Below are positions 7,052 to 42,303 of a stretch of DNA of 64,000 bases, one piece after another. Each line of letters opens with the position of its first letter. Position 1 is the first letter of the stretch. The stretch covers positions 1,330,501 to 1,394,500 of the forward strand of contig NZ_CP017415.1 in the NCBI RefSeq assembly GCF_001753245.1, in the 5' to 3' direction. The position numbers were made by a program, and so were the translations under genes. Under the pieces are notes generated by a model. That model saw only the letters and a program-made list of their open reading frames with translations. It did no database searches and was not told the origin of the DNA. Origin of the DNA: Acidihalobacter yilgarnensis (GTDB lineage: Bacteria > Pseudomonadota > Gammaproteobacteria > DSM-5130 > Acidihalobacteraceae).

Positions 7052-8026
7052 ATGTCTCAAGCCATACGTATTCATCGGCACGGTGGTCCGGAAGTCATGC
7101 GTCTGGAAACGCTCGAAATAGGCAAGCCGGGAGAGGGTGAGGTTTTGCTCAGGCAGCGTGCAATCGGTCTCAATTACATCGATATCTACCACCGTACAGG
7201 CCTGTACCCCGTCGCGCTGCCCGCCGTGCCAGGCATGGAGGGCGCTGCCTGCGTCGAGGCCGTCGGGCGCGGTGTGGTCGATCTGCAGGTAGGCGATCGA
7301 GTGGCCTACGCCGGTGGCCCGATTGGTGCCTATGCGCAAATGCGGGTGATGCCTGTCGATCGTCTGGTCAAGTTGCCGGAAGGTATCGATGACTGTACGG
7401 CGGCGTCGATGATGCTCCAGGGGATGACGGTGCAATACCTGATACGACAGGCTTATCGGGTGTCGCCTAGCGAAACGGTGCTTTGGCATGCTGCCGCCGG
7501 CGGGGTCGGTTTGATCGCCTGTCAGTGGCTGCGGTCGCTGGGCGTGACGGTTATTGGCACGGTAGGTACCGACGAAAAGGCCGCGCTGGCGATGGCGAAC
7601 GGTTGCTCGCATGTGATCAACTACCGTCGTGAGCATTTCGTCGAGCGCGTACGCGAGCTGACGGACGGGGCCGGGGTGCCGGTGGTGTACGACTCGGTGG
7701 GTAAGGATACCTTCGAGGGCTCGCTGGACTGTTTGCAGCGGCGTGGTCTACTGGTCTCCTTCGGCAATGCCTCTGGCGCGGTGCTGCCCTTTAGCCTCGG
7801 TGTGTTGGCGCAAAAAGGTTCCTTGTATGTCACGCGCCCCAATCTTGCCGGATATACCGCGACGCGTGACGAGCTTCTGAGCTGTGCCGGCGAATTGTTC
7901 GAACAGGTGCTGTCGGGGGCGGTGAAGATCACGACGAACCATATCTATCCACTGGCCGAGGCAGCGCAGGCGCATCGGGATTTGGAGGCGCGCAAAACGA
8001 CGGGTTCCATCGTGCTCCTGCCGTGA
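7052..8026 (+). CDS. qorA: NADPH:quinone oxidoreductase (zinc-independent MDR family)
   Basis: A 324-residue medium-chain reductase of the QOR type. The N-terminal domain has the family pattern GLNYIDIYHRTGLYPVALPAVPGMEGA; the cofactor domain has the Rossmann glycines in HAAAGGVGL (AAxGGVG). No structural zinc cysteines are seen, as expected for quinone oxidoreductases. It reduces quinones with NADPH by one electron. The ATG at 7052 was chosen for the GGGAGG (about 7038-7044) upstream; the longer frame to 6938 lacks support. It stands alone, divergent from ubiG and convergent with mtaD. Confidence 0.88.
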   Translation: MSQAIRIHRHGGPEVMRLETLEIGKPGEGEVLLRQRAIGLNYIDIYHRTGLYPVALPAVPGMEGAACVEAVGRGVVDLQVGDRVAYAGGPIGAYAQMRVMPVDRLVKLPEGIDDCTAASMMLQGMTVQYLIRQAYRVSPSETVLWHAAAGGVGLIACQWLRSLGVTVIGTVGTDEKAALAMANGCSHVINYRREHFVERVRELTDGAGVPVVYDSVGKDTFEGSLDCLQRRGLLVSFGNASGAVLPFSLGVLAQKGSLYVTRPNLAGYTATRDELLSCAGELFEQVLSGAVKITTNHIYPLAEAAQAHRDLEARKTTGSIVLLP

Positions 8027-9478: not shown

Positions 9479-10513
9479 ATGACCACCCGCGAGAACGACG
9501 GCGTGCGTGCCGTGATTTGGGCAGGCGATTGCCTGCGGCTGCTGGATCAACGCAGATTGCCGAGCGATACCGTCTGGATTGAGGCGAGCACCGTTGATGA
9601 AGTGGCCTCCGCCATCCGCGATATGGTGGTGCGTGGGGCACCGGCTATTGGTATTGCTGCGGCCTATGGCGTGGCGATGGCGGCCCGGGCCTGCGGCTCG
9701 GACCCGGATGCGCTGGATGCCGCACTGGCGCGTTTGGCGGCGGCGCGACCGACCGCGGTCAATCTGCGCTGGGCAATCGAGCGTCAGCGGGGGCGTATCG
9801 CCGAGGGCGCGGGCGATCTGGCAGCCGTCTTGCTGGCGGAAGCTGTGGCCATTCATGAAGAGGACGTGACCGCCAACCGTCGGATGGGCGTTCTGGGCGG
9901 TGCCCTGATCGAATCCGGCGATGTCCTCACGCACTGCAATACAGGTTCGCTGGCTACCGGTGGTTATGGTACCGCCTTAGGCGTGATCCGCAGTGCCTAC
10001 GCCGATGGCCGCATCGGACGCGTTTATGCAGACGAAACCAGGCCCTGGTTGCAGGGCGCGCGACTGACCGCGTGGGAGCTTGTGCAGGATGGCATTCCGG
10101 TTACGCTGCTGTGCGAGGGTGCTGCGGCCACATTGCTGGCGCGCGGCGAGGTCAGTTGGGTCGTCGCCGGTGCGGATCGTATCGCCGCCAACGGCGATGT
10201 CGCGAACAAGATCGGTACCTATAGTCTGGCTGTGCTAGCGCGTTATCACGGTGTGCGTTTCATGGTCGTCGCGCCGACCAGCACGATTGACATGAATACG
10301 CCCGATGGTGCGGCCATACCCATTGAGGAACGCCCCGCCGATGAATTGCTGTCGCTGGCAGGCCAACCCGTGGCCGCCGCTGGCGCTGGTGCCTGGAATC
10401 CGGTGTTCGATGTAACGCCAGCAGGGCTGATCGATGCGATCGTTACCGAGGCGGGTATCGTTGAGCAACCGGGGTTGGCTGGCATGCACGAGCTGATGGG
10501 GTGGCGTGCCTGA
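9479..10513 (+). CDS. mtnA: Methylthioribose-1-phosphate isomerase MtnA
   Basis: A 344-residue member of the eIF2B-alpha-like isomerase family. Seen are the motif [32 protein letters not shown] with the catalytic Cys, and the Asp in [21 protein letters not shown]. MtnA turns methylthioribose 1-phosphate into methylthioribulose 1-phosphate in the methionine salvage pathway. The ATG at 9479 is preceded by GGAG (9466-9469) with a 9-base gap; a TTG at 9464 is also possible but leaves no ribosome site. It is followed by gyrA after 75 bases, as in Pseudomonas. Confidence 0.93.
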
Positions 10514-10588: not shown

Positions 10589-13201
10589 ATGGCTGATTTC
10601 GCCAAAGAACTGCTCTCGGTCAATCTCGAAGACGAAATGCGCCAGTCCTACCTGGATTACGCCATGAGCGTGATCATCGGGCGGGCGCTCCCCGATGTGC
10701 GTGACGGACTCAAGCCTGTCCATCGTCGTGTGCTGTTCGCCATGAGCGAACTCGGCAACGACTGGAACAAGGCCTACAAGAAATCCGCGCGCGTCGTCGG
10801 TGATGTCATCGGTAAATACCACCCTCACGGCGACACGGCGGTCTACGACACCATCGTGCGTATGGCGCAGCCTTTTTCGATGCGTTACATGCTCGTCGAC
10901 GGGCAGGGCAACTTCGGTTCGGTTGATGGCGACGCACCCGCCGCAATGCGTTATACCGAGGTGCGCATGGCGCGCATCGCACACGAGTTGCTGGCCGATC
11001 TCGAAAAGGAAACCGTCGACTTCAATTCCAATTACGACGGTTCCGAGCGCGAGCCGGCGGTGTTGCCTGCCAAGATTCCAAATTTGCTAATCAACGGCTC
11101 GGCCGGTATTGCGGTTGGCATGGCGACCAACATCCCGCCACACAATCTTTCAGAGGTAATTGCCGCGTGTCTTGCGTTGATCGACACGCCGGAAATCGAT
11201 ATCGACGGTTTGATGACGCACATGCCAGGCCCGGACTTTCCCACTGCGGCGATCATCAATGGCGCCCAGGGGATCAAGGAGGCCTATGCCACCGGTCGCG
11301 GACGGATTTATGTGCGTGCTCGCTCGCATGTGGAGACCGACGAGCGTAACGGTCGTGAGAGCATTGTGGTCACAGAATTGCCTTATCAGGTCAACAAGGC
11401 GCGTCTGCTGGAAAAAATTGCCGAACTGGTTAAGGAAAAGAAACTCGAGGGGATTTCCGAGCTGCGTGATGAGTCCGACAAAGACGGCATGCGCATGGTC
11501 GTTGACCTCAAGCGTGGCGAAATGGCCGAGGTGGTGCTGAATAACCTGTATCAGCATACCCAAATGCAGAGTGTTTTCGGCATCAACATGGTTGCGCTGG
11601 TGGATGGGCAGCCTCGTCTGCTCGATCTCAAGACGATGCTCGATGCCTTCTTGCGGCACCGCCGCGAAGTCGTAACACGCCGCACGCTCTTCGACCTGCG
11701 CAAGGCGCGCGATCGTGCGCACGTATTGGAAGGTCTGGCCGTGGCGTTGGCCAACATCGACGAGGTGATCGCGTTGATCAAGGCATCTGCCAGCCCGGCG
11801 GAAGCGAAGGTTGCTTTGGTCGCGCGGGCCTGGGCGCCGGGTGTCGTGAACCAGATGCTGGAGCGTGCGGGCGCGGAAGCTTCACGCCCGGATGGGTTGG
11901 ATGTCTCACTGGGTCTGGGTGCCGATGGCTACCATCTGTCCGAGGCGCAGGCGCAATCCATTCTCGATCTTCGCCTGCACCGACTGACCGGTTTGGAGCA
12001 GGATAAGATTGTGGCCGAGTACCGCGAATTGTTGAGCAAAATCGAGGATCTGCTCGACATCCTGTCGCGGCCGGGGCGCCTGATGCAGGTGATCAGGGAT
12101 GAACTGATCGCCGTACGCGAGCAGTTCGGCGATGTTCGCCGTACCGAGATACTGAATCGCCGGCTCGATCTTTCGCTCGAAGATTTGATTTCCGAGCAGG
12201 ACGTAGTGGTAACGCTATCGCACGCAGGCTACGCCAAGGCCCAACCGCTGGATGTGTACCGCGCGCAGCGACGCGGTGGGCGTGGGAAGGCGGCGACGAC
12301 GATGCGTGAAGAGGACTTCGTCGACACCTTGTTCGTGGCCAATACCCACGACACGATTCTGTGCTTCTCCAGCCATGGCAAGGTTTACTGGCTCAAGGTT
12401 TATGAACTGCCGCAGGCGGGCAGGAACGCGCGTGGTCGGCCAATCGTCAATCTCTTGCCGCTGGAGGAGGGCGAGCGCATCAATGCCGTCCTGCCCGTGA
12501 AGGTATTCGAGGCGGATCGCTATGTCTTCATGGCGACGACCAAGGGAACGGTCAAAAAGACGCCGCTTGTGGATTTCTCTCGCCCACGCAGTACCGGCAT
12601 CATCGCCGTGGACTTGCGAGACGGTGACCGATTGATCGGCGTCGCGATGACCGATGGACAGCGCGATGCCATGTTGTTGACCAGTGCTGGCAAGGCGATC
12701 CGCTTTGCCGAGCACGAAGTTCGTGCGATGGGTCGTACGGCGTGTGGTGTGCGTGGTGTTCGCCTCGGCGAAGGGCAAAGCGTGGTGTCATTGCTGATTC
12801 TTGACGAGGCCGCGCAGGTACTGATCGCAACAGAACACGGTTATGGTAAACGTACCGATTCCAGTGAGTTCCCGCGTCATGGGCGCGGTGGCCAGGGCGT
12901 GATCGCGATTCAGCCCTCGACACGCAATGGCCAAGTGATCGGCGCCGTGCAGGTTGCCGATGGCGATGAGGCAATGCTCATCACCGACGGAGGCACCCTG
13001 GTACGCACGCCGGTCGACGACGTCTCTGTGATTGGACGTAACACGCAAGGCGTGACGCTGATTCGCCTGGGCGAGGGTGAGCGGCTGGTGCAGATCGAGC
13101 GGGTCGAGTCTCTCAACGGGGATGACGCGGACGGTGTGCTTGACGATGATCCCGATGCCAGCGCTACCGATGATGAGCCGGATGGCGCAGACACGGTTTG
13201 A
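10589..13201 (+). CDS. gyrA: DNA gyrase subunit A
   Basis: An 870-residue type II topoisomerase A subunit. The catalytic Tyr122 is in [10 protein letters not shown], and the quinolone-resistance region reads [18 protein letters not shown]. Residue 83 is Thr, where E. coli has Ser; Asp87 is kept. The C-terminal beta-pinwheel has a GyrA box, QRRGGRGK, needed for negative supercoiling, and an acidic tail ([19 protein letters not shown]). It acts with GyrB (elsewhere) in replication and transcription. Length and order (mtnA-gyrA-serC) match other gammaproteobacteria. Confidence 0.98.
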
Positions 13202-29613: not shown

Positions 29614-31761
29614 TCAAGTATCCGGGAGCCGCCTGGGTAGCAATATCTGTATATGTGTGCCTTGTGAGGCGGTGCTGCGGCAGGTGATGGTGCCATGCAG
29701 TTTGTCCACGAGCTTTTTGGTGATCGAGAGCCCGAGCCCGGCATGGCCGCTGCCTTTGGTGCTGGAGACGGGTTCGAATAGAGTCGCGAGAACTTGTGGT
29801 GGGAGTCCCGGGCCGTCGTCAATGATCTCAACGCCGACATAAGCCTTGTTGCCGATATAAATGTAGTCGGCGGTCGTGACCGAAATGGTCTGCCCAGTCC
29901 CCAAGGCTTCCGCTGCGTTCTTGAGTAAATTCACCAGTATCTGTTTGACACTGTTACGTGCAACGTCAATTAACGGAATCGAGTCGTCCAGCTTTACGAG
30001 CAGTTGAATATCGCTCGGTGAGATCAGAGTGGGTTTGAGTAGGCTGATCACGTCTCGTACCAGCGCATTGACGTCGGTATATTCGCCGTTTTCGTGCGGG
30101 TCAGCCGCTTCTGTCAGACTGCGGATGATGGCGCCGACCCGGCTGATTTCTTCATCGATGATCCGCAGATCACCAGACACATCTGGGCTGGCATCGGCGA
30201 CGCGGCGGCTGAGTATGCCGAGATAGTTCTTGATGATACTCAATGGATTTTTGACTTCGTGTGCAATGCTGCTCGCCTGCAAATGGTACTCGTCGGCTTG
30301 GGTCTGCAAGGCTTGATTCAGAGATTCCTCGCGTTGCCGGAGGGTCGTAATCGAGTGGCCGAGTTCGCGGGCGAATAGTTCGAGCAGGGAGCGTCTTGAG
30401 GACACGCGCGCCTCATCTTCGGCATTGAGACCGACCAGGACGGCGCCTGTGATTCGCCGTTCAGTCCATAGCGCTAGTATCAGCATTCCCTGTGTGCCGA
30501 GTGAGCCGAGGATTTCCAGGTCGATGACGCTCGCATGGCGATCTTCAACGTGATGGCCCAGTTTCCAGGGATAATGGGTGGCGGTTTGTCCTTCACTGAG
30601 GGCTTGGCCGATCAGGCTCCGGTTTGAGGGCAGTGATAAATTCAATTCATCCCACCCTTCCATCGATGCCGTATTGGCAGCGTATCCTGATGCGGAGCCA
30701 GTCGTGTGATCGACCAAGAAATAGCCGATTCGACCGAGGCCGAAGAGTAGTTGACATGCCAGATTGGAGGCGGCGAGCAAGCTGCGGATGTCATCGTTGT
30801 CAGCGAATTGGCGACGTACCGCAGCGATGACGTTCATATCGCCTACACGCCTCGCCAGTTCAGCAGCCGCTCCGATGGGGTGAGGTGCCGTTTCCGTCAC
30901 GGCTGGGGTGCGGTGATCAATGCCCATTATGCTCGTCGTTTCAAGGGTTTGTGCCGCAGCGGAGGCGTGGAGTTCCTCCAGCAAGCTGGGGATCAGGCCA
31001 AGGGTCCGATCCGCAGCGACCAAGCCGGCAGTCGGTGGCATGCGAGCGTCGGCACTCAGCCGGTTTGCAACCGCGACCAGGCGCACCAGGTGATGGGCCT
31101 CCGTCAAATCATCGGTGCTGGCATGGTGAAATCGGACGGCGTCTTCTAGTATGCCGCGTCGCCCCGCGCGCTGGAGCATTAGCGCCCCTAGGCTCGCGTG
31201 ATCGATGCCGAAAAGGCTGGTTTCATGCTGTGTCAGCCCGTCTGGCTCGTCGGTGGCTCGATTCAGAACCGCGTCATAGCGTTCGGGATCGACCGTGAGT
31301 AGGGCGATTTGGCCGATGCCGCTGAGTAGTCCACCCAGATACGCTTCGTGGGGTGATGGATAACCGCTGAGTTCTGCGAGTTTACTGGCAAGTGTTGCGG
31401 TTAATAGAGCGTCATGCCAGAACTGGTGATGGCGGTGGGAATGTGTGCTAAGCGATTGGTCGACGAACTGGTAGACTGCTGCGGTTAAGGCCAGCGTTCT
31501 CAGGGTATTGACCCCGAGCAGCATCAGGATCTGTTCGAGATTTAGCCGCCGATCAGTCTGGTGCTGCCCGTAGGCTGGGCTGCAGGATAGCACGAGGACG
31601 CGCGCAGAGAGGGCGGCATCCTGACGGACCAGACTGGCAATTTCGTTGATGCTGCGCTCACTGGACTCACAGGCATCCAGCAGGCGAAAAAGAATTTGCG
31701 GCAAGGTGGGCAGACAGGTGATGTCGATCGCATTAATCTGCGGTGTCTGCACACGGTTCAT
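29614..31761 (-). CDS. HDOD-domain sensor histidine kinase
   Basis: A 715-residue protein without membrane segments. An N-terminal HDOD domain (about 10-260, starting LPTLPQILFRLLDA) is followed by a GAF-like region (about 310-470), a dimerization/phospho-acceptor segment with His501 in SSIAHEVKNPLSII, and an HATPase domain with the N box NLLKNAAEAL and G boxes DDGPGLPP and GHAGLGLSI. HDOD is known as a signalling domain of uncertain ligand; joined to a kinase it probably acts as input. The next gene (112 bases on) begins with a receiver domain. Confidence 0.9.
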   Translation of the reverse strand: MNRVQTPQINAIDITCLPTLPQILFRLLDACESSERSINEIASLVRQDAALSARVLVLSCSPAYGQHQTDRRLNLEQILMLLGVNTLRTLALTAAVYQFVDQSLSTHSHRHHQFWHDALLTATLASKLAELSGYPSPHEAYLGGLLSGIGQIALLTVDPERYDAVLNRATDEPDGLTQHETSLFGIDHASLGALMLQRAGRRGILEDAVRFHHASTDDLTEAHHLVRLVAVANRLSADARMPPTAGLVAADRTLGLIPSLLEELHASAAAQTLETTSIMGIDHRTPAVTETAPHPIGAAAELARRVGDMNVIAAVRRQFADNDDIRSLLAASNLACQLLFGLGRIGYFLVDHTTGSASGYAANTASMEGWDELNLSLPSNRSLIGQALSEGQTATHYPWKLGHHVEDRHASVIDLEILGSLGTQGMLILALWTERRITGAVLVGLNAEDEARVSSRRSLLELFARELGHSITTLRQREESLNQALQTQADEYHLQASSIAHEVKNPLSIIKNYLGILSRRVADASPDVSGDLRIIDEEISRVGAIIRSLTEAADPHENGEYTDVNALVRDVISLLKPTLISPSDIQLLVKLDDSIPLIDVARNSVKQILVNLLKNAAEALGTGQTISVTTADYIYIGNKAYVGVEIIDDGPGLPPQVLATLFEPVSSTKGSGHAGLGLSITKKLVDKLHGTITCRSTASQGTHIQILLPRRLPDT

Positions 31762-32878: not shown

Positions 32879-33568
32879 TCATCGGTGCGGGTTTTCGTGC
32901 CTGGTCTCGTGCCGAAAATAAGCGATCAGAGCGGCAATTTGTGCTTCGTCTAGCGGGTTCTGCAGCGAGATCATCGGTGTGCCGTGAATACCCGTGATCA
33001 TGCGTGCGGCGAATTCACGCGGGTTCATCTTGTGTGCCCAGGTAAACAAATCTGGCGTGGGGAATTCGGACTGCGGATTGTGGTAGCGATGACAGGCTGC
33101 ACAGCGTTCGGCATATAAGCGACCGGCCCAGCGTATTTGATCTGGGGTGGCAGCCGTGCCGTTGATGTCGTGCAGGTACAGTGGGAAGGCGATGGTCAGT
33201 TTTTCGAGCACACGAGAGAACACGTGCCATCGCCTAGCGGTGAACGCACTGCGCAAGGTCTGTATCTGGCCGACCACACGTGTTTCAGCAGCTGCTTCGC
33301 CTTGCAGATAATGTCGCGCCAACAAGGGCAATACGTTCAGATCGGCTTTGATTTTCTGGTGCAAGCCCTGTTGTTCCTTGGGCGGGTACTTGGGTGTGCG
33401 TAGACGTTCGAAATTACCTTTGAGGACGAGTAGTTCGGCTGCGAAATCGCGTGCCTGGACGCCGCTGCGAAGGATGTCGGCATGGGCGGCGCCCAGTATT
33501 ATGGACGCCGCCATGAGCAAGCTCAGGAGCAGCCGGCGTGTGGATACCTCAAGACTTGGGTGAGGCAT
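32879..33568 (-). CDS. Periplasmic monoheme c-type cytochrome
   Basis: A 229-residue exported protein. A signal peptide (residues 1-30, ending GAAHA) precedes a helical region of about 110 residues and a C-terminal cytochrome c domain with one heme motif, CAACH at 156-160. A methionine in HGTPMIS is a likely sixth heme ligand. The ATG at 33568 starts the signal peptide; the longer frame overlaps the upstream gene. It lies 17 bases after the periplasmic rhodanese at the end of the sulfur series, so it may take electrons from sulfur oxidation there. That role is inferred from position. Confidence 0.8.
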   Translation of the reverse strand: MPHPSLEVSTRRLLLSLLMAASIILGAAHADILRSGVQARDFAAELLVLKGNFERLRTPKYPPKEQQGLHQKIKADLNVLPLLARHYLQGEAAAETRVVGQIQTLRSAFTARRWHVFSRVLEKLTIAFPLYLHDINGTAATPDQIRWAGRLYAERCAACHRYHNPQSEFPTPDLFTWAHKMNPREFAARMITGIHGTPMISLQNPLDEAQIAALIAYFRHETRHENPHR

Positions 33569-33585
33569 TCTGGTCGTGCGTATTT

Positions 33586-34536
33586 TCAGTTGGCCTGCGT
33601 GAGTTTGATCTTGGTTTCCATCGGCAGGGCCGGGTTGCTCGACCATTGGGCCATCGATCCGTCGTAGACCTTGGCCTGCTTGTTATGTAACAGCTCATAA
33701 CTCACGAACCAGCCGAGTGAGGCCCAGTGGCCGGTATTGCAGAAATTGATCTGTTCGCCCTGTGTCCCGACGCCGGCTTGTTTGTAAAGCGCCTTGAGCT
33801 GTGCGATCGAGCGAAATTCGCCGCCGTCGTTGACGGTGAACCAACCCTGAGGCAGGTTCGCGGCACCTGGAATGGTACCCGCGCGCTTGTCCATGGGGGG
33901 CTTGGTGACGCCGAGATATTGTGACATGGGACGGTTGTCGACGAGCTGGATTTTGTTCCCCGATTTCATGGCCTGTTCCACTTCGGACTCACTGGCCAGC
34001 AGATTGTGGTCGAGGTGCCCGCTGAACTGTGCGGCGCTCGCGGTTTGCATGCCGCGCTTGATGGGGTACTTACCGGCGACATAGGCCTTGTAACCGCCAT
34101 CCATGATGGAGACGTTTTTGTCGCCTAGTACTTTGAAGGTCCAGAACACGCGTGTAGCGCTGCCCATGTCGAGGGCATTCGTGCCCGCCGAGTAAATCAC
34201 GACATGTGTATGGTTATCGATCCCCAGCCCCCCGATCAGCTTATCGAGCTGCGCCACGGGCGGTAGCATGCCGGGTATGTCTTTTTCCTTGATGCGCCAG
34301 CCGGCCTTGGCGTAATTACTGTAAACGGCGCAGGGGACATGTCCGCTCATGTAGGTGAACTTGTCGCCACCACCGCCGACCGGACTGCGCACGTCGACGA
34401 CCACGATGCCGGGTTTGCAGGTATGGGCGGCGACCCAGGCAGGGCTGACCAAGGGCGGCGACGTATCCTGCGCGCCGAATGCGGCACCGGCCATCGCCAA
34501 CAATGTCGATCCGACTACGATTTTTTTAATGTTCAT
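33586..34536 (-). CDS. Periplasmic tandem-rhodanese sulfurtransferase
   Basis: A 316-residue protein with a signal peptide (about 1-22, ending AAFGA) and two rhodanese domains. The second carries the active-site Cys266 in NFCNTGHWAS; the first has no cysteine at the matching place, as is normal in tandem rhodaneses. It would transfer sulfane sulfur from thiosulfate or a persulfide to a thiol or cyanide in the periplasm. GGAGAG lies 7 bases before the ATG. It sits between small DsrE-like genes and a cytochrome c in the sulfur locus. Confidence 0.9.
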   Translation of the reverse strand: MNIKKIVVGSTLLAMAGAAFGAQDTSPPLVSPAWVAAHTCKPGIVVVDVRSPVGGGGDKFTYMSGHVPCAVYSNYAKAGWRIKEKDIPGMLPPVAQLDKLIGGLGIDNHTHVVIYSAGTNALDMGSATRVFWTFKVLGDKNVSIMDGGYKAYVAGKYPIKRGMQTASAAQFSGHLDHNLLASESEVEQAMKSGNKIQLVDNRPMSQYLGVTKPPMDKRAGTIPGAANLPQGWFTVNDGGEFRSIAQLKALYKQAGVGTQGEQINFCNTGHWASLGWFVSYELLHNKQAKVYDGSMAQWSSNPALPMETKIKLTQAN

Positions 34537-34560: not shown

Positions 34561-34743
34561 TCAGATCGTGATGACACGATCCGACGACAGGATTTCGTCC
34601 AGAAGACGATCCCATTGTGCTTCGCTCCGCGCCTCACGCAGATCGCTGCGATGGACGGAATGTGATGATGAGGAATCGGCTAGCGCATCCCGCAGGAAAT
34701 TTTGATCGGGAAACAGACCGGTTTCGAGAATGACGATATTCAT
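34561..34743 (-). CDS. 60-residue protein of the sulfur locus, function unknown
   Basis: A short cytosolic-looking protein: a beta-strand start (MNIVILETG), a polar, Ser/Asp/Glu-rich middle, and the end LLDEILSSDRVITI. There are no cysteines. AGGA lies 8 bases before the ATG, and the gene fits tightly between a DsrE-like gene (27 bases) and the rhodanese gene (24 bases). Its last strand resembles those of the two DsrE-like neighbours (AVLSI, KVISL), so it may be a reduced relative, but I do not recognise a family. Confidence 0.6.
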   Translation of the reverse strand: MNIVILETGLFPDQNFLRDALADSSSSHSVHRSDLREARSEAQWDRLLDEILSSDRVITI

Positions 34744-34770
34744 ATGCGGTTCCTGCTCGCGGGTGTCGTG

Positions 34771-35043
34771 TCAAATGCTCAGTACGGCGTCCGCTTCCAG
34801 GCACATGACCTGGAGTGCGGTGGGCGGCACATACGGCAGATCCGAATCCATCAAGGTGCTCAAGGGTTCGATGTCGGACAGTTCCAGCAGCTCTGCTTGA
34901 GCGCGGTTTTCGGGTGTGTCCTCGACGTCCCGCCCCATGAAGACGAGATTGACCGTATGACCGAAAATGGTCAGGCCTGCGGCCACACGCATCGCCTCGG
35001 TCTGGTCGCGCCGACCGAGCAGTAGGATATTTTTGGTGTTCAT
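34771..35043 (-). CDS. DsrE-like small protein
   Basis: A 90-residue protein with the alternating strand/helix pattern of the DsrE/DsrF fold: KNILLLGRRDQTEAMRVAAGLTIFGHTVNLVFMG at the start and ALQVMCLEADAVLSI at the end, with one cysteine (in VMCLEAD). DsrE/TusD-type proteins carry or hand on sulfur on a cysteine in the cytosol. GGAG precedes the ATG at 35043; the longer frame has no ribosome site. It is 22 bases after another DsrE-like gene. Confidence 0.7.
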   Translation of the reverse strand: MNTKNILLLGRRDQTEAMRVAAGLTIFGHTVNLVFMGRDVEDTPENRAQAELLELSDIEPLSTLMDSDLPYVPPTALQVMCLEADAVLSI

Positions 35044-35065
35044 ATGAAGCGATCTCCGTCGAATG

Positions 35066-35356
35066 TCAGAGGCTGATGACCTTGCTGGCGTCGGCAATCA
35101 TTGCGCTGTGATCGGTCTGGCTGCCGAGCTCGACGGGGCAGGGCGTGCCGTCGCAGTGGCGCAGCCATGAGTGTTCGCATACGACTGCCCGCCCGGCCTC
35201 CGCGACCAGGGTCGCGAGTTCGGGGTCGCGCAATACCGCTACGCCTTCGCCGGTGAAAAAGACGCTCCAGCCCGCGCCACGGCGGCGAGTTGCGCGTAGC
35301 AGGGGAGGCAGCAGCGTTTGCGCATCGCGCGAAGAAACCACGTACATCAGTTCCAT
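35066..35356 (-). CDS. DsrE-like small protein with three cysteines
   Basis: A 96-residue protein starting MELMYVVSSRDAQTLLPPLLRATRRRGAGWSVFF in shortened view, with a DsrE-type strand-helix-strand plan. Its C-terminal half has three cysteines (in VVCEHS, LRHCDG and TPCPVEL) and ends DASKVISL. The ATG at 35356 is preceded by AAGGAAGG and overlaps the upstream gene by 10 bases. A much longer frame (to 36292) is antisense-like and Arg-rich, and was rejected. Probable sulfur carrier, by fold and company. Confidence 0.68.
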   Translation of the reverse strand: MELMYVVSSRDAQTLLPPLLRATRRRGAGWSVFFTGEGVAVLRDPELATLVAEAGRAVVCEHSWLRHCDGTPCPVELGSQTDHSAMIADASKVISL

Positions 35357-36318
35357 GAGACCTTCCTTGTCGTGAGATACAGCGTGGTAAAGGCAATGGC
35401 GCCGCCTGCGAGCCCTGCCAGCAGTGCTACCAGGAACCAGCGCCAAGCGGGGGCGGCTGGATGATCCGTTGTGTGGCCGATCGCCGGACGGGTGGCGTAG
35501 GTTTCGTCCGCGACGGGCAGCGCCGTGTGTGCCGCCCAGGCTCGCCAACCCCCCGGATAGATCCTGACTCTGGCGCCTAAACCAGCGCGTAATGCGGCGA
35601 AATAGGCGATACCGCGCATCGGATCGGCGGCATAGGCGATGGCACCCTCGAGTGCGTCGGCGGATGGGCGGGTGGGTGGGTGTTCGGATAGCGAGTCGGC
35701 AGGTAGCGACTGCGCGCCGGGGATGTGCCCGCCGCGGTAGGCGTCGATACGCATGCCGCGATAGGCATCCAGCCCGCGGCCATCGACAAGCAGCGGTGGA
35801 TTCGGTTGCGACAGCATGCGTGCGAGTTCTTCGCGCCAGACGATCAAGTCTGCGCGCACACGCCCTTCGTAGATGGGATCGGCCACGAGCGAGCGAGGGC
35901 GTCCGCGGGCTTCGCCAATGGTGGGGTCGTGCAGGACGGTGCGCAGCGAGCGTTGCAAAATGAGCACTCGGTGTTGACCGGCGAGATAGAGCACGCCGGC
36001 TACGAAGTCTCGCCGCAATGCGTGGTCGCCCGCGACCAGTACGGTTTCGCGACCGGATAGCCCCAGTGTGCCGAACAGCCACATGATCTGCCTGAAATCG
36101 GGTAGCCGACCATGCGGCCCCAGCAGTTCGCTGGCAGGCAGGCACCGGGCGTCGGGTACGCTCGCATGTTCGCAAACCGCGAGCGGTCTGACGTCGAGGG
36201 TGACGATGGCGGTTTGGTGCAGCAGGCCCAGGTCGTCGGTGTAGGCGAGTCCGTCCGTCGCCCCTGCCGTCAGCGGAGCGATGAGCAGGCATGCGGCGAT
36301 GGCCAGCCGGGGTGTCAC
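35347..36318 (-). CDS. Membrane-anchored rhodanese-fold protein lacking catalytic cysteine
   Basis: About 323 residues. A signal peptide (to about residue 20, TAGATDG) leads two rhodanese-like domains: the first near VTLDVRPLAVCEHASVPDARCLPASELL, the second near LLVDGRGLDAYRGMRIDAYRGGHIPGAQSLPADSL. A C-terminal membrane helix follows (WRWFLVALLAGLAGGAIAF). Where the second domain should have Cys, the sequence reads IAYAADPMRG (Ala); the first domain (VLVAGDHALRRD) has none either. It may bind sulfur compounds or hold partners at the membrane instead of catalysing transfer. The GTG at 36318 has GGAGG upstream; it is 4 bases after the previous stop. Confidence 0.75.
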   Translation of the reverse strand: MTPRLAIAACLLIAPLTAGATDGLAYTDDLGLLHQTAIVTLDVRPLAVCEHASVPDARCLPASELLGPHGRLPDFRQIMWLFGTLGLSGRETVLVAGDHALRRDFVAGVLYLAGQHRVLILQRSLRTVLHDPTIGEARGRPRSLVADPIYEGRVRADLIVWREELARMLSQPNPPLLVDGRGLDAYRGMRIDAYRGGHIPGAQSLPADSLSEHPPTRPSADALEGAIAYAADPMRGIAYFAALRAGLGARVRIYPGGWRAWAAHTALPVADETYATRPAIGHTTDHPAAPAWRWFLVALLAGLAGGAIAFTTLYLTTRKVSWN

Positions 36319-36322: not shown

Positions 36323-36604
36323 TCAGCAGCCTCCGAACTGCACCGGCGCGGTGCCGTCGGTGAGCGTGGCCGCATGTACCTTGGGCGGGTGCTCGATGTA
36401 ATACTCCATCAATTGCGTCACGCTCATTTGGCCGTGCCGGTGGCCCACGTCGATGGCTTGCTCAAAGGTATCGAGCGGCATCGGGATGGCAGCCTGTTGC
36501 AGGGTATCCGGGGACACCGAGGCGAGCGGCGTCAGCCCAATGGCAAGCCCCAGGCTCACGAGCAAGGTCAGGGCGCAAAAGGTCAGAACCTTGGCGTTGT
36601 TCAT
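36323..36604 (-). CDS. Small exported/membrane protein ending in Gly-Gly-Cys
   Basis: A 93-residue protein. A hydrophobic segment at about 8-26 acts as signal or anchor. A polar middle follows (FEQAIDVGHRHGQMSVTQLMEYYIEHPPKVHAA), and the last residues are PVQFGGC, with Cys93 as the C-terminus. SoxY, the periplasmic sulfur carrier of the Sox system, ends GGCGG and holds substrates on that Cys; a similar arm role here is an analogy, not homology. The other Cys (10) is inside the hydrophobic segment. It lies between small membrane proteins and the rhodanese-fold gene. Confidence 0.7.
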   Translation of the reverse strand: MNNAKVLTFCALTLLVSLGLAIGLTPLASVSPDTLQQAAIPMPLDTFEQAIDVGHRHGQMSVTQLMEYYIEHPPKVHAATLTDGTAPVQFGGC

Positions 36605-36623: not shown

Positions 36624-36716
36624 TTACTTGCCGAATGGGTCTTGGGTGAAGGCCACCCACATGATGTAGAAGGCGACGCAAAACATGCCGATCTGAATCA
36701 GGGTCGAGAGGGTCAT
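36624..36716 (-). CDS. 30-residue single-pass membrane microprotein
   Basis: A short frame with ATG at 36716 and TAA at 36624-36626. The peptide is one membrane helix (about residues 5-22, IQIGMFCVAFYIMWVAF) with a polar end TQDPFGK. GGAG lies about 10 bases upstream, and the gap to the upstream gene is 5 bases, as expected inside an operon. No family recognised. Such peptides often stabilise a membrane complex; the split YeeE transporter or the rhodanese-fold protein are possible partners (inference). Confidence 0.55.
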   Translation of the reverse strand: MTLSTLIQIGMFCVAFYIMWVAFTQDPFGK

Positions 36717-36721: not shown

Positions 36722-36931
36722 TTACTCTCCGAGGTAATGGCGCACCAGCGTGTTCACATCGACAGGCTGGCCGGTTACAGGGTTAATGACGGCAGGCGTG
36801 TAGTAGGGCACGCCATAACGTGTGGCCTTGAGGTAGGCCGGCGGGGCCGATGTGATGTAGCCGAGCCCACCCAGGGTCAGCACGCTGGCGATTATCGCCA
36901 GCCCCGACATCTGTATCTGTCCGCGCGTCAT
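36722..36931 (-). CDS. 69-residue membrane protein of the sulfur locus
   Basis: One hydrophobic segment (about residues 9-28, GLAIIASVLTLGGLGYITS) near the N-terminus is followed by a proline-rich soluble tail (YYTPAVINPVTGQPVDVNTLVRHYLGE) that is probably periplasmic. No cysteine. The start at 36931 is one base after the tusA-like stop, showing co-translation. Family unknown. It is one of three small membrane proteins in a row. Confidence 0.65.
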   Translation of the reverse strand: MTRGQIQMSGLAIIASVLTLGGLGYITSAPPAYLKATRYGVPYYTPAVINPVTGQPVDVNTLVRHYLGE

Positions 36932-36932: not shown

Positions 36933-37238
36933 TCAGTTTCTCCGGATCACGACCTGCCAGCCGCGATCACCCTTGGGCGAGCCGAGCAGGGTGCCGTTGA
37001 GCTCTGGCAACATCGCCAGCACGGCCTCGAAGGAGGTGGGGTTGTCGATTTTCACGCCCACCACTTGCCCGGAAGACGCCTTGCCCAGGGCTTTTTTGGT
37101 CATCAGCTGCGGGCGTGGGCAGGAGTCACCCAAACAATCGACCCATTCGTCGACTGCCACCGAACTGCCGTCTTCGAGCGCCACCGAGGCGGCGCCACTC
37201 GATGCTGCAGCCTGCTTCTTTCCACCGAACAATCCCAT
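36933..37238 (-). CDS. TusA-family sulfur carrier protein
   Basis: A 101-residue protein. A short Gly/Ala/Lys-rich start (about 1-25) is followed by a TusA (SirA-like) domain with the CPxP motif, DSCPRPQL, Cys40. A second cysteine is at 35 (WVDCLGD). TusA proteins carry sulfur as a persulfide on this Cys in the cytosol and are often encoded beside YeeE/YedE transporters, as here. AAGGAG lies 6 bases before the ATG at 37238. It follows the transporter genes by 57 bases. Confidence 0.88.
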   Translation of the reverse strand: MGLFGGKKQAAASSGAASVALEDGSSVAVDEWVDCLGDSCPRPQLMTKKALGKASSGQVVGVKIDNPTSFEAVLAMLPELNGTLLGSPKGDRGWQVVIRRN

Positions 37239-37295: not shown

Positions 37296-38006
37296 TTAAC
37301 CTTTGCCTGCGGTAGCCAGCGTGTCTGTGTCGTCACCTTCCGCGCCGGTGGGCGAGGCGATGGTTGCGGATGCTGTTTTGGCAGTCTGCTCAGCGGCACG
37401 GACGGCGGCCTCGCGGGCTGCAGCCATGGCGCGTTCCTTACGGACGATGGCGTAGTAGATGCCGCCAAGTACCAAGCTTTGTATCAGGCCGAAGAAAATC
37501 GCCGGGATGCCGGTTTGCTGCTGCAGGGTCTGGGCGTTGGCGAAGCCAAGCTGCAATCCGGCCAGATCGACGCCGCCGGTCATGGTCTGCGGCGCGGGCG
37601 GCCACCAGGTGGAGGACCAGAACAGCGAGAACAGGAACATGCCGATGAAGGTGAACAACAAGGCCCACATCGCACCGACGTTGCCTTCACCGGATTTGAC
37701 CCAGGTGGATACCGTGCAGGCACCCGCCAAGACCATGCCGATGCCGAACAGAAACAGCCCAATTACCTGATTGAGTCCGACCTCGAAATGCATTGGGTGT
37801 CCGCCGCCAACGCTGATGAAGGCGGTGAAACCGATGGTCAGGATCATCATGCAAACCAGCAGCGCTTTGGTGTTGCGATAACTCTTGAACAGCATGGCGT
37901 CGCGCAGGGCCGCGGTGTTGCAGAAGCGAGAGCGTTGTACCAGGAATCCGACCACCGAGCCGAACAGGAAGGCGGCCAGACATTGTGTCAACGATGACAT
38001 TTCCAT
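37296..38006 (-). CDS. YeeE/YedE-type thiosulfate transporter, half 2
   Basis: A 236-residue membrane protein with about five helices and a charged Ala-rich cytosolic tail. Conserved cysteines are in QRSRFCNTAALRD and GMVLAGACTVSTW, the pattern of the YeeE/YedE family. YeeE takes up thiosulfate by passing it along cysteines through the membrane and works with a TusA-like protein (YeeD). In E. coli the protein is one chain of about 350 residues; here the preceding gene holds the other part. They are 3 bases apart. Confidence 0.88.
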   Translation of the reverse strand: MEMSSLTQCLAAFLFGSVVGFLVQRSRFCNTAALRDAMLFKSYRNTKALLVCMMILTIGFTAFISVGGGHPMHFEVGLNQVIGLFLFGIGMVLAGACTVSTWVKSGEGNVGAMWALLFTFIGMFLFSLFWSSTWWPPAPQTMTGGVDLAGLQLGFANAQTLQQQTGIPAIFFGLIQSLVLGGIYYAIVRKERAMAAAREAAVRAAEQTAKTASATIASPTGAEGDDTDTLATAGKG

Positions 38007-38009: not shown

Positions 38010-38501
38010 TCAGGCCTCCATCACGCGCTTGTAGATCAGCGAGCCAACCCAGGCGCCGACGATGATGCCGCTTACTGAAAGATAACCGCCGAGATTCATT
38101 TCCGGCGTCAGGCCGAAGAAGGTGCTGACATTGCAGACAAAGGCCAGTCGGATGCCGATGCCCATCAGCAGGCCGCCGATGGTGATCATGATCCATTCGC
38201 TGAGATGCCGCGGGACGCGCCAGTAGAATTCCTTGCTGCCGACGGCGGCAACGATGGCGCCGAAGAACATGCCGAGGCTGATGTAAATCTTCCAGTAATA
38301 CGGGGTCGGTTCGAAGGCGAATTTCCAGAATGGAATCCGATAGATCTGGTCACCCATGAACAGTTTGGCGACCAGCCCGGTGATCATGGTTTCGCCACCG
38401 CCCACGGTCCAGGCGCCGACGACCAGGAATAGAAATATGTCGAGCAGCGCGATGATACTCAGCGCGACGATCGGATCGATGGTCTTTTTGAATAACTGCA
38501 T
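38010..38501 (-). CDS. YeeE/YedE-type thiosulfate transporter, half 1
   Basis: A 163-residue protein with about four membrane helices. Family marks are the helix ending LFLVVGAWTVGGGE and the cysteine in GIRLAFVCNVSTFFGLTPEMNLGGYLSVSGIIVGAW. It is the first gene of the sulfur series. AGGGAGAGG lies just before the ATG at 38501, and a sigma-54 promoter lies 31 or so bases upstream of it. Half-size YeeE pairs occur in several proteobacteria and are taken to form one transporter. Confidence 0.86.
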   Translation of the reverse strand: MQLFKKTIDPIVALSIIALLDIFLFLVVGAWTVGGGETMITGLVAKLFMGDQIYRIPFWKFAFEPTPYYWKIYISLGMFFGAIVAAVGSKEFYWRVPRHLSEWIMITIGGLLMGIGIRLAFVCNVSTFFGLTPEMNLGGYLSVSGIIVGAWVGSLIYKRVMEA

Positions 38502-38663: not shown

Positions 38664-40004
38664 TCAGTCGAGACCGAGCTTGCGCCGCAGTGTGGACCGG
38701 CTGATGCCGAGCCGCTTGGCGGCGGCCATCTGGTTGCCGTCGCAGGCCGCCACCACCCGACGGATATGATCGAGCTCCACTTCAGACAGCGATTTGAGCG
38801 CGGTGCCAGTCGGCACTGCTTCATGCGCCGGCGGTGAAGGACTCAGGTTGTCGAACAGAATGGCTTCGGCATCGAGGGTTTCGCGGTCGCTCAGTGCGAA
38901 GCTGCGTTCGAGTACATTGCGTAGCTGGCGTACGTTGCCAGGCCAGTCGTAAGCGACGAGCTTGCGGCGGGCCTGGGTGTCCACCGTGAGCCCCGGCCGG
39001 TCGGTTTTGTGGCGCAACAGTTCGATGAAGTGATCGATCAGTGGCGTGATGTCGTCGCGTCGCTCGCGCAAGGGAGGGATCGTTAAAGGTAGTACGTTCA
39101 GGCGGAACAACAGATCGGCGCGAAAGGCTCCGCTGTGAACCAAGCCGGCGAGGTCTCGGTTGGTCGCCGCGATTACGCGCACGTCGACCCGAGTACTGCC
39201 GGTGCCGCCCACCGGGCGTACTTCGCCCTCTTGCAGGACGCGCAGCAGCTTCGCCTGCAGGCGCGGGCTGACATCGCCGACCTCATCCAGAAACAGGGTG
39301 CCGTGATCGGCCTGCCCGAACAATCCTTCGTGCTGGGCGACGGCGCCGGTGAAGGCGCCCTTGACGTGACCGAACAGCTCCGAGTCGAGCAGGTCCTCGG
39401 GCAGAGTGGCGCAATTGACCGCAACGAAGGGCGCCGATACACGCAGGCTGGTTTGATGGATGGCGCGAGCGAGTACTTCCTTGCCGACACCGGTCTCGCC
39501 GGTAATGAGCACGGGGACGTCCTGACTGCGAATTCTCTGAACCAGCTCGGAAATGCCGCGCATCGCGGCACTCTCAGCGATGAGAGGGGAGTCGGGTCGG
39601 CCATCGAGCTGCGCACGTAGCCGGCTGACTTCCTCACCGAGCAGCTTGCGCTCAAGTACCTTGACCACGCGCATCAGGAGTTCGTCGGGATTGACCGGTT
39701 TGGTCAGATAATCGTAGGCGCCCAGGCGCATGGCCTCGACGGCATTTTCAATGGAGCCGAAGGCGGTCATCACGATGCTTTGGGTCTCGTCACCCCGTTC
39801 GCGCAGCGATTCGATGATTTCAAGGCCATTACCGTCGCCCAGGCGCAGATCGGTGATTACCAGATCCATCCGGTGGCGATCGATTATGGCTTTGGCCTCG
39901 GCGACGGATCCGGCCTCGATCACCTGGTGGCTGCGCGCCTTGAGCATCAGCCCGAGCGTGGTTCTCACCGCGTATTCGTCGTCCACGATTAATATGGTGG
40001 CCAC
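38664..40004 (-). CDS. Sigma-54-dependent response regulator (NtrC family)
   Basis: A 446-residue protein. The receiver domain (about 1-120) has DD at 8-9 and phospho-acceptor Asp52. The AAA+ domain (about 140-370) has Walker A GETGVGKE, the sigma-54 contact loop GAFTGA and TLFLDEVGD. A Fis-type helix-turn-helix ends the protein (MAAAKRLGISRSTLRRKLG). It should bind the two dyads just past its own stop and turn on the operon at 38501. It is 4 bases after the kinase gene. The set resembles TspSR-type regulators of sulfur genes in Acidithiobacillus by role, not by proven homology. Confidence 0.93.
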   Translation of the reverse strand: MATILIVDDEYAVRTTLGLMLKARSHQVIEAGSVAEAKAIIDRHRMDLVITDLRLGDGNGLEIIESLRERGDETQSIVMTAFGSIENAVEAMRLGAYDYLTKPVNPDELLMRVVKVLERKLLGEEVSRLRAQLDGRPDSPLIAESAAMRGISELVQRIRSQDVPVLITGETGVGKEVLARAIHQTSLRVSAPFVAVNCATLPEDLLDSELFGHVKGAFTGAVAQHEGLFGQADHGTLFLDEVGDVSPRLQAKLLRVLQEGEVRPVGGTGSTRVDVRVIAATNRDLAGLVHSGAFRADLLFRLNVLPLTIPPLRERRDDITPLIDHFIELLRHKTDRPGLTVDTQARRKLVAYDWPGNVRQLRNVLERSFALSDRETLDAEAILFDNLSPSPPAHEAVPTGTALKSLSEVELDHIRRVVAACDGNQMAAAKRLGISRSTLRRKLGLD

Positions 40005-40008
40005 AGGT

Positions 40009-41439
40009 CTAAAGCGTCTCCAGTTCGAATGCGACCTCGGTGCCCCTGCCGGGTTGGCTGATCATGTGCAGGCTGGTCCCATGTTGCATGAGTATGCGCT
40101 GAACAATGGCCAGTCCGAGGCCAGTGCCGCCCTTGCGGCCGGACACGAACGGGCGCCTGACCTTGTCCAGCAGGTCCGGGGCGATGCCCTCCCCGTTGTC
40201 GCCAATCGCAAGGCGCAGACGGTGCCCGCCAGACGATTCGAGGGCGACGACGATGCGCCCATGTCCTGCCATTGCCTGCACGGCGTTGCGCATCAGATTC
40301 CACAACACTTGACGCATCTGGTCCTGGTCGAAGACCGCCAGGTGTGCCGGCGTGTCGATGCGTCGGACAATTTCGATATCACCGGCGACATCGGGGTCGT
40401 TGGCGAACAGTGTGACGACTTCGTCGATCAGCACCAGCAGGTCATGGCGTTCGAGGCAGGATTCACGGACGCGCGAGAAGTCGAGAAAGCTCTCGAGAAT
40501 ACGCTGCAAACGACCCGCTTCGTCGTTGAGTATCCGGCGTACCTTGATCTGGTCCTCGGCGTCCAGCTCCGATTGCCCTATGAGGCTGACGGAGTTGATC
40601 ACCGCCGCCAGCGGATTGCGGATTTCATGGGCGATGCTGGCAGCTAGCTCGCCGACGCAGGCCAGTCGCTCCGCATCCATGCGCTTCTCGTGCTCACGTA
40701 CGACGGCCTGCGAGGTTTCACGCAAGGAGTCCAGCATGCCATTGAAGGCTTTGGCCAACACGCCGACCTCGTCGCGGCGGCGGACATCCACGCGAGCCCC
40801 GAGATCGCCATCTGCGATGCGCTGCACGGCCGTGCCCAGACGATGCAGATTGCGCGTGATGGCGTAGGACAGCAGCCAGGCGGCACCGCCGCCAATGAGC
40901 AATGCGGTGAGGATGAACAGTAACCCCTCGTTACGTATGCGTTGTAGTTCACGATGCATCCCGGCGGTGGATAGGCCTAGGTAGACGGTGCCGACTACAC
41001 GCCCCGCCACGCGCACCGGTTCATCAAGTCGCATGAGTCGGGGATGTCGCTGGGCGATATCGGGGCGTACCGTGACGAGCGAACGGCCGACATCGCTGCC
41101 CGAGGTGCTGGCCAGCACTTCACCGCGCTCGTCGACGATCAACCCGTAGGCCACATCCGGCTGCTGGCGTACCCGCGCGGTGACCTCTCCCAGCGAGGCC
41201 AGATCCTCGGACAGCAGCGCATTGGTGCTCGCTACCGCCATCAGATTGACCAGCGAATGCCCGCGACTTTCCAGCTCGGCTCGGATTCCGGCCGATTGTT
41301 CGTTGACGGCATCCCAGATGAATCCGCCCATCAGAATCACGTGGACCAATGACACGGACAGGATCAGGCGCACGCGCAGCGTCGACAGCCACGGAATGCG
41401 TTCGCTGCTGCGCAAGGTCCAGCCAGCTGCCGGTTTCAT
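40009..41439 (-). CDS. Membrane sensor histidine kinase
   Basis: A 476-residue kinase. TM1 (about 23-42), a periplasmic sensor region (about 43-170), TM2 (about 172-193), HAMP (about 194-245), a phospho-acceptor domain with His271 in ASIAHEIRNPLAAV, and HATPase (NLMRNAVQAM, GDNGEGI, GGTGLGLAIV). It has its own sensor region but is also 3 bases after a periplasmic PhnD-like binding protein, which may bring it the signal. Output is the NtrC-type regulator downstream. Confidence 0.92.
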   Translation of the reverse strand: MKPAAGWTLRSSERIPWLSTLRVRLILSVSLVHVILMGGFIWDAVNEQSAGIRAELESRGHSLVNLMAVASTNALLSEDLASLGEVTARVRQQPDVAYGLIVDERGEVLASTSGSDVGRSLVTVRPDIAQRHPRLMRLDEPVRVAGRVVGTVYLGLSTAGMHRELQRIRNEGLLFILTALLIGGGAAWLLSYAITRNLHRLGTAVQRIADGDLGARVDVRRRDEVGVLAKAFNGMLDSLRETSQAVVREHEKRMDAERLACVGELAASIAHEIRNPLAAVINSVSLIGQSELDAEDQIKVRRILNDEAGRLQRILESFLDFSRVRESCLERHDLLVLIDEVVTLFANDPDVAGDIEIVRRIDTPAHLAVFDQDQMRQVLWNLMRNAVQAMAGHGRIVVALESSGGHRLRLAIGDNGEGIAPDLLDKVRRPFVSGRKGGTGLGLAIVQRILMQHGTSLHMISQPGRGTEVAFELETL

Positions 41440-41442
41440 GGT

Positions 41443-42303
41443 TTATTTCACCTGTCTGTACTCGGCATCGCTGGTGCGGATGAAGCCCTGCGGAAAGCCG
41501 AGATGTCGGAGTATGTCGTCGTCGTGCGGGTGTTCGTGCAAGGCCAGCAGGCTGGCGGCGATAGTCTCGCGCAGCTTGGACGGCAGGGTGTCGAGCACGG
41601 CGATGGGCATCTGCGGCTGCGGCGGGGTTTCCGCGATCACACGCAGGTTCCCGCGCACTGCACGAGGCATCGAGCGCAGCGATGGCCACCAGGTGCCGGC
41701 GACGTTGACTAATCCGGAGTTCAGGGCCATCAGCACCGAGTCCTGCGAGCCGAAGTAGCGCACCTTGCAACAGCGCTCAAGGTCGACGCCGTGCGTGCGT
41801 AAATAACTGCGTGTCATTACCGTGGCCGCATAGGCACGGGGATCGGGGAAGCCGATGACCAGTCCCCGCCGCCATTGTGCGGGGTCGATGCCGTGGAGCG
41901 GGCTGTCTTTGCGCACCACCAGGATACCGGTGAAGGGTTCGCCGAGGACCTTGACGACGGCGGTATAACCGGCCCGCTTGGCCTGGGTGAACAGCAGCGG
42001 ATTCAGATACACGATGTCGTAGTCGTGATGCATCACGCGTTGCATGAAGACCGAGAAGCTCGGGGCGGTAACGAACTGTACCGGCCGGTGCAACGAACGC
42101 TGTAGGTATTCGGCCAGCGGTATGAACATGTCGGCCAGCTTGGTCGGGCTTTGCAATGGCAGCACGCCAAAGCGCAACCAGTGTCCATGCTGTGCCAGGA
42201 CCGGGGGCTGTGCCTGTCCAGGTGGCGCGAGGGCCAGCAGGATGAGCAGGCAGCAGGCACCGATCAGTCGATGCGGCATACGCGGGCTGGGTGCTGTGCT
42301 CAT
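41443..42303 (-). CDS. PhnD-like periplasmic binding protein, likely sensor partner
   Basis: A 286-residue exported protein of the phosphonate/phosphite-type binding family. Signal peptide to about residue 31 (PGQAQ), then LRFGVLPLQSPTKLADMFIPLAEYL, the family phrase DYDIVYLNPLLFTQA, and FTGILVVRKDSP. No ABC permease or ATPase is nearby; a histidine kinase follows at once. The tetrathionate sensor kinase TtrS carries a PhnD-like sensor domain, so sensing of a sulfur oxyanion such as thiosulfate or tetrathionate is a fair inference here. Cys pair CC in LERCCKVRYFG. Confidence 0.85.
   Translation of the reverse strand: MSTAPSPRMPHRLIGACCLLILLALAPPGQAQPPVLAQHGHWLRFGVLPLQSPTKLADMFIPLAEYLQRSLHRPVQFVTAPSFSVFMQRVMHHDYDIVYLNPLLFTQAKRAGYTAVVKVLGEPFTGILVVRKDSPLHGIDPAQWRRGLVIGFPDPRAYAATVMTRSYLRTHGVDLERCCKVRYFGSQDSVLMALNSGLVNVAGTWWPSLRSMPRAVRGNLRVIAETPPQPQMPIAVLDTLPSKLRETIAASLLALHEHPHDDDILRHLGFPQGFIRTSDAEYRQVK

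Follow-up and report, generated by a model that had tools for sequence, protein, structure and literature searches.

A small membrane protein ending in Gly-Gly-Cys, encoded within a sulfur-oxidation cassette of Acidihalobacter yilgarnensis, is probably a periplasm-facing, membrane-tethered thiol arm that passes sulfane sulfur to a YeeE-type channel for TusA. The window, by which we mean the whole stretch of 64,000 nucleotides analysed, belongs to a genome of 3.57 Mb on a single contig (G000). A profile of the C-terminal half of the transporter (E≤1e-40) found 11 of 369 genomes, and a small protein of this type was present in all 11, ending in GGC in ten and in TGC in G269. The two genes were seen side by side in nine of these genomes and lay on separate contigs in G157 and G211. 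This co-occurrence is the strongest functional tie of the GGC protein. The original prediction had seen a sulfur-carrying arm serving the adjacent rhodanese or cytochrome; the arm is kept here, and the main partner becomes the split YeeE-type transporter with its TusA, the constant companion in 11 of 11 genomes. The features of the region are listed below in the order of transcription.

38664 to 42303, minus strand: flank of the cassette, named by eye; genes which we take to encode a PhnD-like binding protein, a histidine kinase and a response regulator
38010 to 38501, minus strand: YeeE/PmpA-like half transporter, C-terminal half of Sulf_transp, with the conserved FVCNVS cysteine (Pfam PF04143, 7e-22)
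37296 to 38006, minus strand: YeeE/PmpB-like half transporter, N-terminal half, with the conserved RSRFC and AGACTV cysteines (Pfam PF04143, 1.1e-24)
36933 to 37238, minus strand: TusA-family sulfurtransferase, starting MGLFG, with the SCPRPQ active-site cysteine (Pfam PF01206, 7.6e-14)
36722 to 36931, minus strand: 69-aa single-TM protein with a similar LVRHY motif
36624 to 36716, minus strand: 30-aa single-TM peptide (MTLSTLIQIGMFCVAFYIMWVAFTQDPFGK), present in most cassettes
36323 to 36604, minus strand: 93-aa single-TM protein with terminal FGGC, candidate periplasmic sulfur-carrier arm
35347 to 36318, minus strand: two-domain rhodanese-like protein with an apparent signal peptide and a C-terminal TM helix, catalytic cysteine lost (YAAD), with a C-x9-C pair (Pfam PF00581, 5.3e-12)
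35066 to 35356, minus strand: 96-aa DsrE-like small protein with an invariant CEHSW cysteine, candidate DsrE type II
34771 to 35043, minus strand: 90-aa conserved protein, candidate DsrF type II
34561 to 34743, minus strand: 60-aa conserved protein, candidate DsrH type II
33586 to 34536, minus strand: two-domain rhodanese with an apparent signal peptide and an intact catalytic cysteine (FCNTG) (Pfam PF00581, 6.1e-19)
32879 to 33646, minus strand: c-type cytochrome (CAACH) (Pfam PF13442, 2.2e-6)

The gene of the GGC protein runs from 36604 down to 36323 with an ATG start and a TGA stop, and its product reads MNNAKVLTFCALTLLVSLGLAIGL...APVQFGGC. The layout is that of a short N-terminus with one Lys, a helix (residues 6-24), a conserved middle (G54, G58, Y69 and P73-P74), a variable linker and the FGGC end, as expected of the small protein with a C-terminal Gly-Gly-Cys that had been predicted. 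Cys93 is the final residue and the sole other cysteine, C10, lies within the hydrophobic helix, which is also the best 19-residue hydropathy window (mean KD 2.39; runner-up 0.43). The predicted export is plausibly read as an N-in, single-pass topology with the tail in the periplasm, and the net charge is +1 ahead of the helix and −1 over the 15 residues past it. Across 12 family members the charge bias was weaker (0 to +3 on the N-side and −1 to +2 on the C-side), and a positive-inside bias that is weak or absent in several of them counts against a periplasmic arm. The proposed membrane tether is thus plausible from the single N-terminal helix and qualified by the weak charge bias of the family. 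The anchor is presumed to stay uncleaved, and removal by signal peptidase may also occur. A single-sequence AlphaFold2 model (pLDDT 57.8, with the tail at 76-93 below 50) was neutral on docking.

Searching the draw of 369 genomes of the class with a two-sequence profile yielded matches at E≤0.01 in 13 genomes, one of them that of the window. Ten of these held clear full- or near-full-length matches, and G020, G172 and G205 (E 0.003-0.009) showed partial matches in long open frames that were dropped as chance by score and length. The phylum draw (398 genomes) returned the own genome and G621, one order (40 genomes) returned G337, already known, and G800, and the G269 member, which the profile had missed, was found through synteny. 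In the order of G129 the protein occurred in 1 of 20 genomes, G129 itself. The family thus defined has 13 members including that of the window, with pairwise identities of 15-96% (median 35%) and 74% in a relative of the same genus. A single copy is held by the own genome, where the next match was at E 0.62; homologue scans of genome contigs gave no match for the protein, and on plasmids there was only a chance-level match (E 0.1), among the matches listed mostly under integrase genes.

The tail reads [F/I]GGC in 12 of the 13 members and TGC in G269, so that the double Gly is not absolute, and GC stands at the end of all 13. In the alignment the two final columns do not vary and the one before them is conserved in 12 of 13, as against a mean conservation of 0.32 over the 14-column linker directly before FGGC; a naive column permutation for the terminal conservation gave p = 0.0007. 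The position of the cysteine at the very end after a flexible segment is borne out by this pattern, and a homologue without the terminal Cys, the case named beforehand as evidence against a functional tail, was not found in the family.

The common gene order, established by tblastn with the neighbours in the window, was YeeE C-half, YeeE N-half, TusA, the 69-aa protein, the 30-aa protein and the GGC protein, followed by the rhodanese-like protein, three small proteins, the rhodanese and the cytochrome c. From the YeeE C-half to the third small (60-aa) gene the order was the same in 9 of 9 loci that hold the run complete, and the C-half of the window was 67-98% identical to those of seven relatives. 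The cassettes of G157 and G211 were split over contigs. G210 and G269 gave no match to the 30-aa gene. G210 also gave none to the active rhodanese, which in G129 and G800 lies upstream in divergent orientation. In G269 the cassette cytochrome was not detected, and a 442-aa ORF with five CxxCH motifs lies downstream of this divergent cassette (L054, about 5921-7249, minus strand); its DsrE-like gene was missed by tblastn and an ORF with CELSW sits in its place. In G159 the 69- and 30-aa proteins form one continuous frame (L035, about 10052-10387, minus strand), which suggests that the two membrane proteins work as one two-helix unit. Close homologues of the PhnD-like, kinase and regulator genes flank the cassette in 8 of the 13 genomes; G211 had kinase and regulator only, PhnD not being on the contig. 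This set (38664-42303) may be a system for sensing sulfur compounds. Elsewhere in the window, a 715-aa protein (29614-31761) appeared by eye to join an HDOD domain to a histidine kinase.

The cysteines along the presumed route are conserved. The AGACTV motif of the YeeE N-half was kept in 12 of 12 loci, FxCNxS of the C-half in 11 of 12 (all but G621) and SCPRPQ of TusA in 13 of 13. The C-x-x-SW motif of the DsrE-like protein was found in 12 of 13 frames; the thirteenth frame (L055) was matched by chance and lies outside the gene. The cysteine of the DsrE-like protein is invariant in the 11 aligned rows.

In G269 the GGC homologue and the 69-aa homologue both end in ASAKAISAPTGC (L054, 11683-11976 and about 12102-12368, both minus strand). 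At the DNA level, 39 of the last 40 nucleotides of the two genes are identical, and of the preceding 20 only 6. The near identity implies that a local duplication or conversion put the Cys tail on a second small membrane protein. Such copying would be expected if the tail itself were the working part, as if the arm were transferable. Except in G269, the 69- and 30-aa proteins had no terminal Cys in any locus read. We do not claim that the 69-aa neighbour is homologous to the GGC protein: with G269 left out, hhalign gave a probability of 2.1% (E 0.022), and the 86.7% obtained with G269 included is due to the shared tail, which inflates the score.

No domain above cut-off was found in the 93-aa protein by Pfam or NCBIfam, and a profile search of solved structures gave no relative up to E 10. 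A PDGLE domain was rejected, since it scored 16.6 bits against a gathering cut-off of 27 and appeared in 1 of 12 members. The arm nevertheless has counterparts. Like SoxY of SoxYZ, whose Cys carries sulfur, the protein has its Cys on a C-terminal Gly-rich arm in hydrophobic-Gly-Gly-Cys surroundings. Unlike SoxY, whose tail is GGCGG ([ILV]GGCGG at 17 of 19 loci in the family genomes), its chain stops at the Cys, it has an N-terminal membrane helix, and the absence of a SoxY domain was confirmed (PF13501, no match at E≤0.1 in the window's protein or any of 12 members). The same model found SoxY in 11 of the 13 genomes, all except G059 and G210, so that the GGC protein is not a stand-in for SoxY. 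No SoxZ was found among the ten proteins of the region that were scanned.

The second counterpart is LbpA of the sHdr system, which has a near-C-terminal, often Gly-flanked Cys that has been likened to SoxY in the part of the source available (PMC6067878). In G000 and G001 the LbpA candidate is a 145-aa GcvH-like protein (PF01597 at about 9e-38 in both) and ends in FGGC, as the GGC protein does; the two lie at L059 4392-4829 (minus strand, in the sHdr region of G000) and at L060 4799-5236 (minus strand, in the matching region of G001). Unlike LbpA, the GGC protein has no GCV_H domain (no match at E≤0.1 in 12 members, against 1e-25 or better in the LbpA candidates). In a count over 13 loci, 30 of 883 mechanical ORFs with a length of 80 aa or more ended in Cys. 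GGC was the ending of 12, of which 10 belong to the GGC family and 2 are the LbpA candidates. Every GGC-ended ORF in this count therefore belongs to a sulfur-handling gene set, and no unrelated one was present in the 13 loci. The FGGC end shared with the LbpA candidates slightly raises the support for a carrier and slightly lowers that for a mere transporter subunit. LbpA is presumably cytoplasmic, so the ending alone is no argument for the periplasm.

A C-terminal Cys arm is also used in sulfur metabolism by DsrC, which is soluble, resides in the cytoplasm and has two cysteines in its tail. The GGC protein differs from DsrC/TusE in having one tail Cys (12 of 12 members examined), behind a membrane helix, and no DsrC domain was matched at E≤0.1 in Pfam (the window's protein and 12 members) or in NCBIfam (the window's protein). 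The best-supported reading of these comparisons is that the protein would work like the arm of SoxY or LbpA and is neither, its family being nameless in the libraries searched.

The proposed mechanism is as follows. The N-terminal helix would anchor the protein N-in, the short conserved part (G54 to P74) would dock it on the transporter, and the variable linker would let the terminal Gly-Gly-Cys swing. Sulfane sulfur would be loaded onto Cys93, in persulfide (or thiosulfonate) form, by donors in the periplasm; the likeliest of these are the cluster's active rhodanese and/or SoxYZ. The arm would then offer the sulfur to the split (PmpAB-type) YeeE transporter at its outer opening. From there the sulfur would pass over the channel cysteines to TusA and on to the DsrEFH-type-II-like trio, the final acceptor being Dsr in most genomes and sHdr-LbpA in that of the window. 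In the published model, SoxY-bound sulfur is passed along three cysteines of a YeeE-type channel (PMC11582611), and the TusA relative YeeD binds to the concave surface that YeeE exposes to the cytoplasm (PMC11073785), as far as the available parts of these papers go. SoxYZ, present in 11 of the 13 genomes, could itself do the hand-off, which argues against a dedicated carrier arm.

The cassette resembles the yeeE-tusA-dsrEFH type II (YTD) cluster (PMC13293266, PMC13047784) in its YeeE-like transporter and TusA, and may also correspond to it in a DsrE-like protein with a conserved Cys and two small conserved proteins. A YeeE/YedE-family transporter beside tusA is present (PF04143 in both halves, PF01206), in the same order in the relatives. 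The 96-aa DsrE-like protein has no sequence match to DsrE in Pfam, NCBIfam or PDB, and the PDB sequence search gave no relevant match for it or for the 90-aa DsrF candidate; its single-sequence AlphaFold2 model (pLDDT 47.5) was too poor for a fold search. Two further conserved small ORFs (90 and 60 aa), compared by place and size, sit where DsrF and DsrH of type II would, and the trio at 34561-35356 resembles DsrEFH type II by place, size and the DsrE Cys. In vitro, DsrEFH type II is described as a sulfur transferase that hands sulfur to DsrC in one direction only (PMC13293266). According to the available part of the same account, the YTD cluster occurs in 985 genomes, mainly of Desulfobacterota and Nitrospirota, 73.9% of them with reductive dsrAB, one subtype includes Pseudomonadota (21%), and five genes are listed. 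The cassette differs from the cluster so described in its split transporter, extra small TM proteins, GGC protein, pseudo-rhodanese, rhodanese and cytochrome c, and also in its setting, with SoxY in 11 of 13 genomes and, in the genome of the window, sHdr and no full-scoring dsrA. That YeeE-TusA pairs elsewhere manage without such a small protein, as far as the available account goes, weighs against the carrier arm. Among the literature matches listed, with most subscription papers outside the scope of the search, no C-terminal GGC protein was tied to YeeE. The nearest arrangement is the SoxT1A locus of Hyphomicrobium denitrificans (PMC11582611), where the neighbours of a YeeE-type sulfane-sulfur importer are Hden_0678, a short single-TM protein of 56 aa left without an assignment in that work, and a DsbA-like protein of the periplasm whose chain finishes in Cys-X2-Cys. 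In the available description, however, Hden_0678 is free of Cys, and the protein next to it is of the thioredoxin-like type and no short arm.

The half-size YeeE-family proteins are reminiscent of PmpAB, although those of the window, at 163 and 236 aa, exceed the roughly 130 aa of PmpAB and belong to a sulfur-oxidation cassette. The split transporter and the small TM genes that adjoin it raise the question of whether the 30-, 69- and 93-aa proteins simply assemble with the PmpAB-type halves and replace the missing central helix, the GGC tail being a plug or gate whose Cys would form a mixed disulfide with a channel Cys. Helix H7 is indeed uncovered by PmpAB in the part of the source consulted (PMC11582611), and the 69- and 30-aa proteins, which lack a terminal Cys except in G269, demonstrate that small membrane parts free of a Cys tail exist. 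We nevertheless consider such a non-carrier subunit rather unlikely, since it accounts neither for the strictly terminal Cys after Gly-Gly, as in the tails of SoxY and LbpA, nor for the copy of the tail that the adjacent protein carries in G269.

The rhodanese-like protein encoded next to the GGC gene lacks the Cys of the catalytic loop, expected as [YF]C..G, in 11 of 11 readable GGC loci (G621 was unreadable), and this neighbour, one of the two partners named originally, can therefore not be charged with sulfur in the usual way. The loop of the G269 rhodanese at this position reads YCQTG. Together with its equivalents in 10 further loci, the protein at 35347-36318 forms a conserved pseudo-sulfurtransferase with the C-x9-C pair kept. 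A second rhodanese with a loop Cys (FCNTG, YCNTG or YCDSG) was present in 11 of 12 GGC loci and not found in G210; this active enzyme could be the sulfur donor. The adjacency of the genes and the missing Cys would also fit an arm that enters the vacant pocket of the pseudo-rhodanese, the pair making up a split sulfurtransferase, and G269, where the arms end in TGC, is the genome that keeps YCQTG. We regard this as improbable, because the rhodanese with its loop Cys makes a split enzyme unnecessary in 11 of 12 loci and because the G269 rhodanese may be a different orthologue. Similarly improbable is a combination in which the membrane-anchored arm provides in trans the Cys that the pseudo-rhodanese lacks, loads in its pocket, swings and threads sulfur into the split YeeE channel; if true, it would amount to a periplasm-to-cytoplasm persulfide conveyor with a transplantable Cys tail.

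The C-x9-C pair of the pseudo-rhodanese, found in 11 of 11 GGC loci checked and by pattern in G800, and a cytochrome c match in 12 of 12 GGC loci (the haem motif was not read in L037) would be in keeping with a redox role, with Cys93 acting as the reductant of the C-x9-C disulfide or as an electron relay towards the cytochrome; G269, which is without that cytochrome, has the other ORF with five CxxCH motifs. Cys93 is a lone thiol without a CXXC partner, and such a thiol makes a poor reductase, which renders this role still less probable than the split enzyme.

An origin of the terminal GGC from a Shine-Dalgarno sequence, or a spurious ORF, can practically be dismissed: the GGA GGC codons of the window do form GGAGG 11 nt before the likely GTG start of the next gene, yet 10 of 11 loci examined have no GGAGG at that spot and retain GGC, and the protein has homologues across 13 genomes. 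The codons at both tail Gly positions vary (GGA, GGC, GGT and GGG), from which, with GGAGG in the window only, it follows that the tail is selected as protein.

Returning to the thiol arm, the cytoplasmic routes that it would feed differ between the genomes. DsrA was above cut-off in 10 of the 13; the match in G211 was partial (model positions 190-402) and below cut-off, and in G000 and G001 there were only weak matches in 841-aa frames. In G000, where alone the sHdr set was checked, Pfam detected at C1 2.860-2.866 Mb a run with the make-up of sHdr (Fer4, CCG, FAD oxidoreductase, unknown, Fer4 and CCG) and, behind it, a GcvH-like and a DsrE-family protein; the LbpA candidate with the FGGC end follows. 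The cassette accompanies either cytoplasmic oxidation route, Dsr in most genomes or sHdr-LbpA in G000, and with SoxY in 11 of 13 it neither requires nor replaces SoxYZ. The DsrEFH-type-II-like trio likewise occurs together with SoxY (11 of 13 genomes), and the genome of the window combines it with sHdr and has no full-scoring dsrA. In a Thiohalobacter genome, dsrEFH was reported absent although rDsr was present, in the part of the report available (PMC6504805). Type-II-like genes of the present kind might fill such gaps.

The transfer of sulfur to the cytoplasm has been described as taking place "by unknown means" in the available part of one account (PMC11582611). If the present reading is true, a tethered thiol arm encoded with a YeeE-type transporter is a concrete candidate for the hand-off from periplasm to cytoplasm, here in 13 genomes, with Dsr in most and sHdr-LbpA in that of the window. 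An ending shared, within one genome, by a membrane-anchored protein and an LbpA candidate would then extend the Gly-Cys pattern noted for LbpA and SoxY (PMC6067878) to a third kind of carrier.
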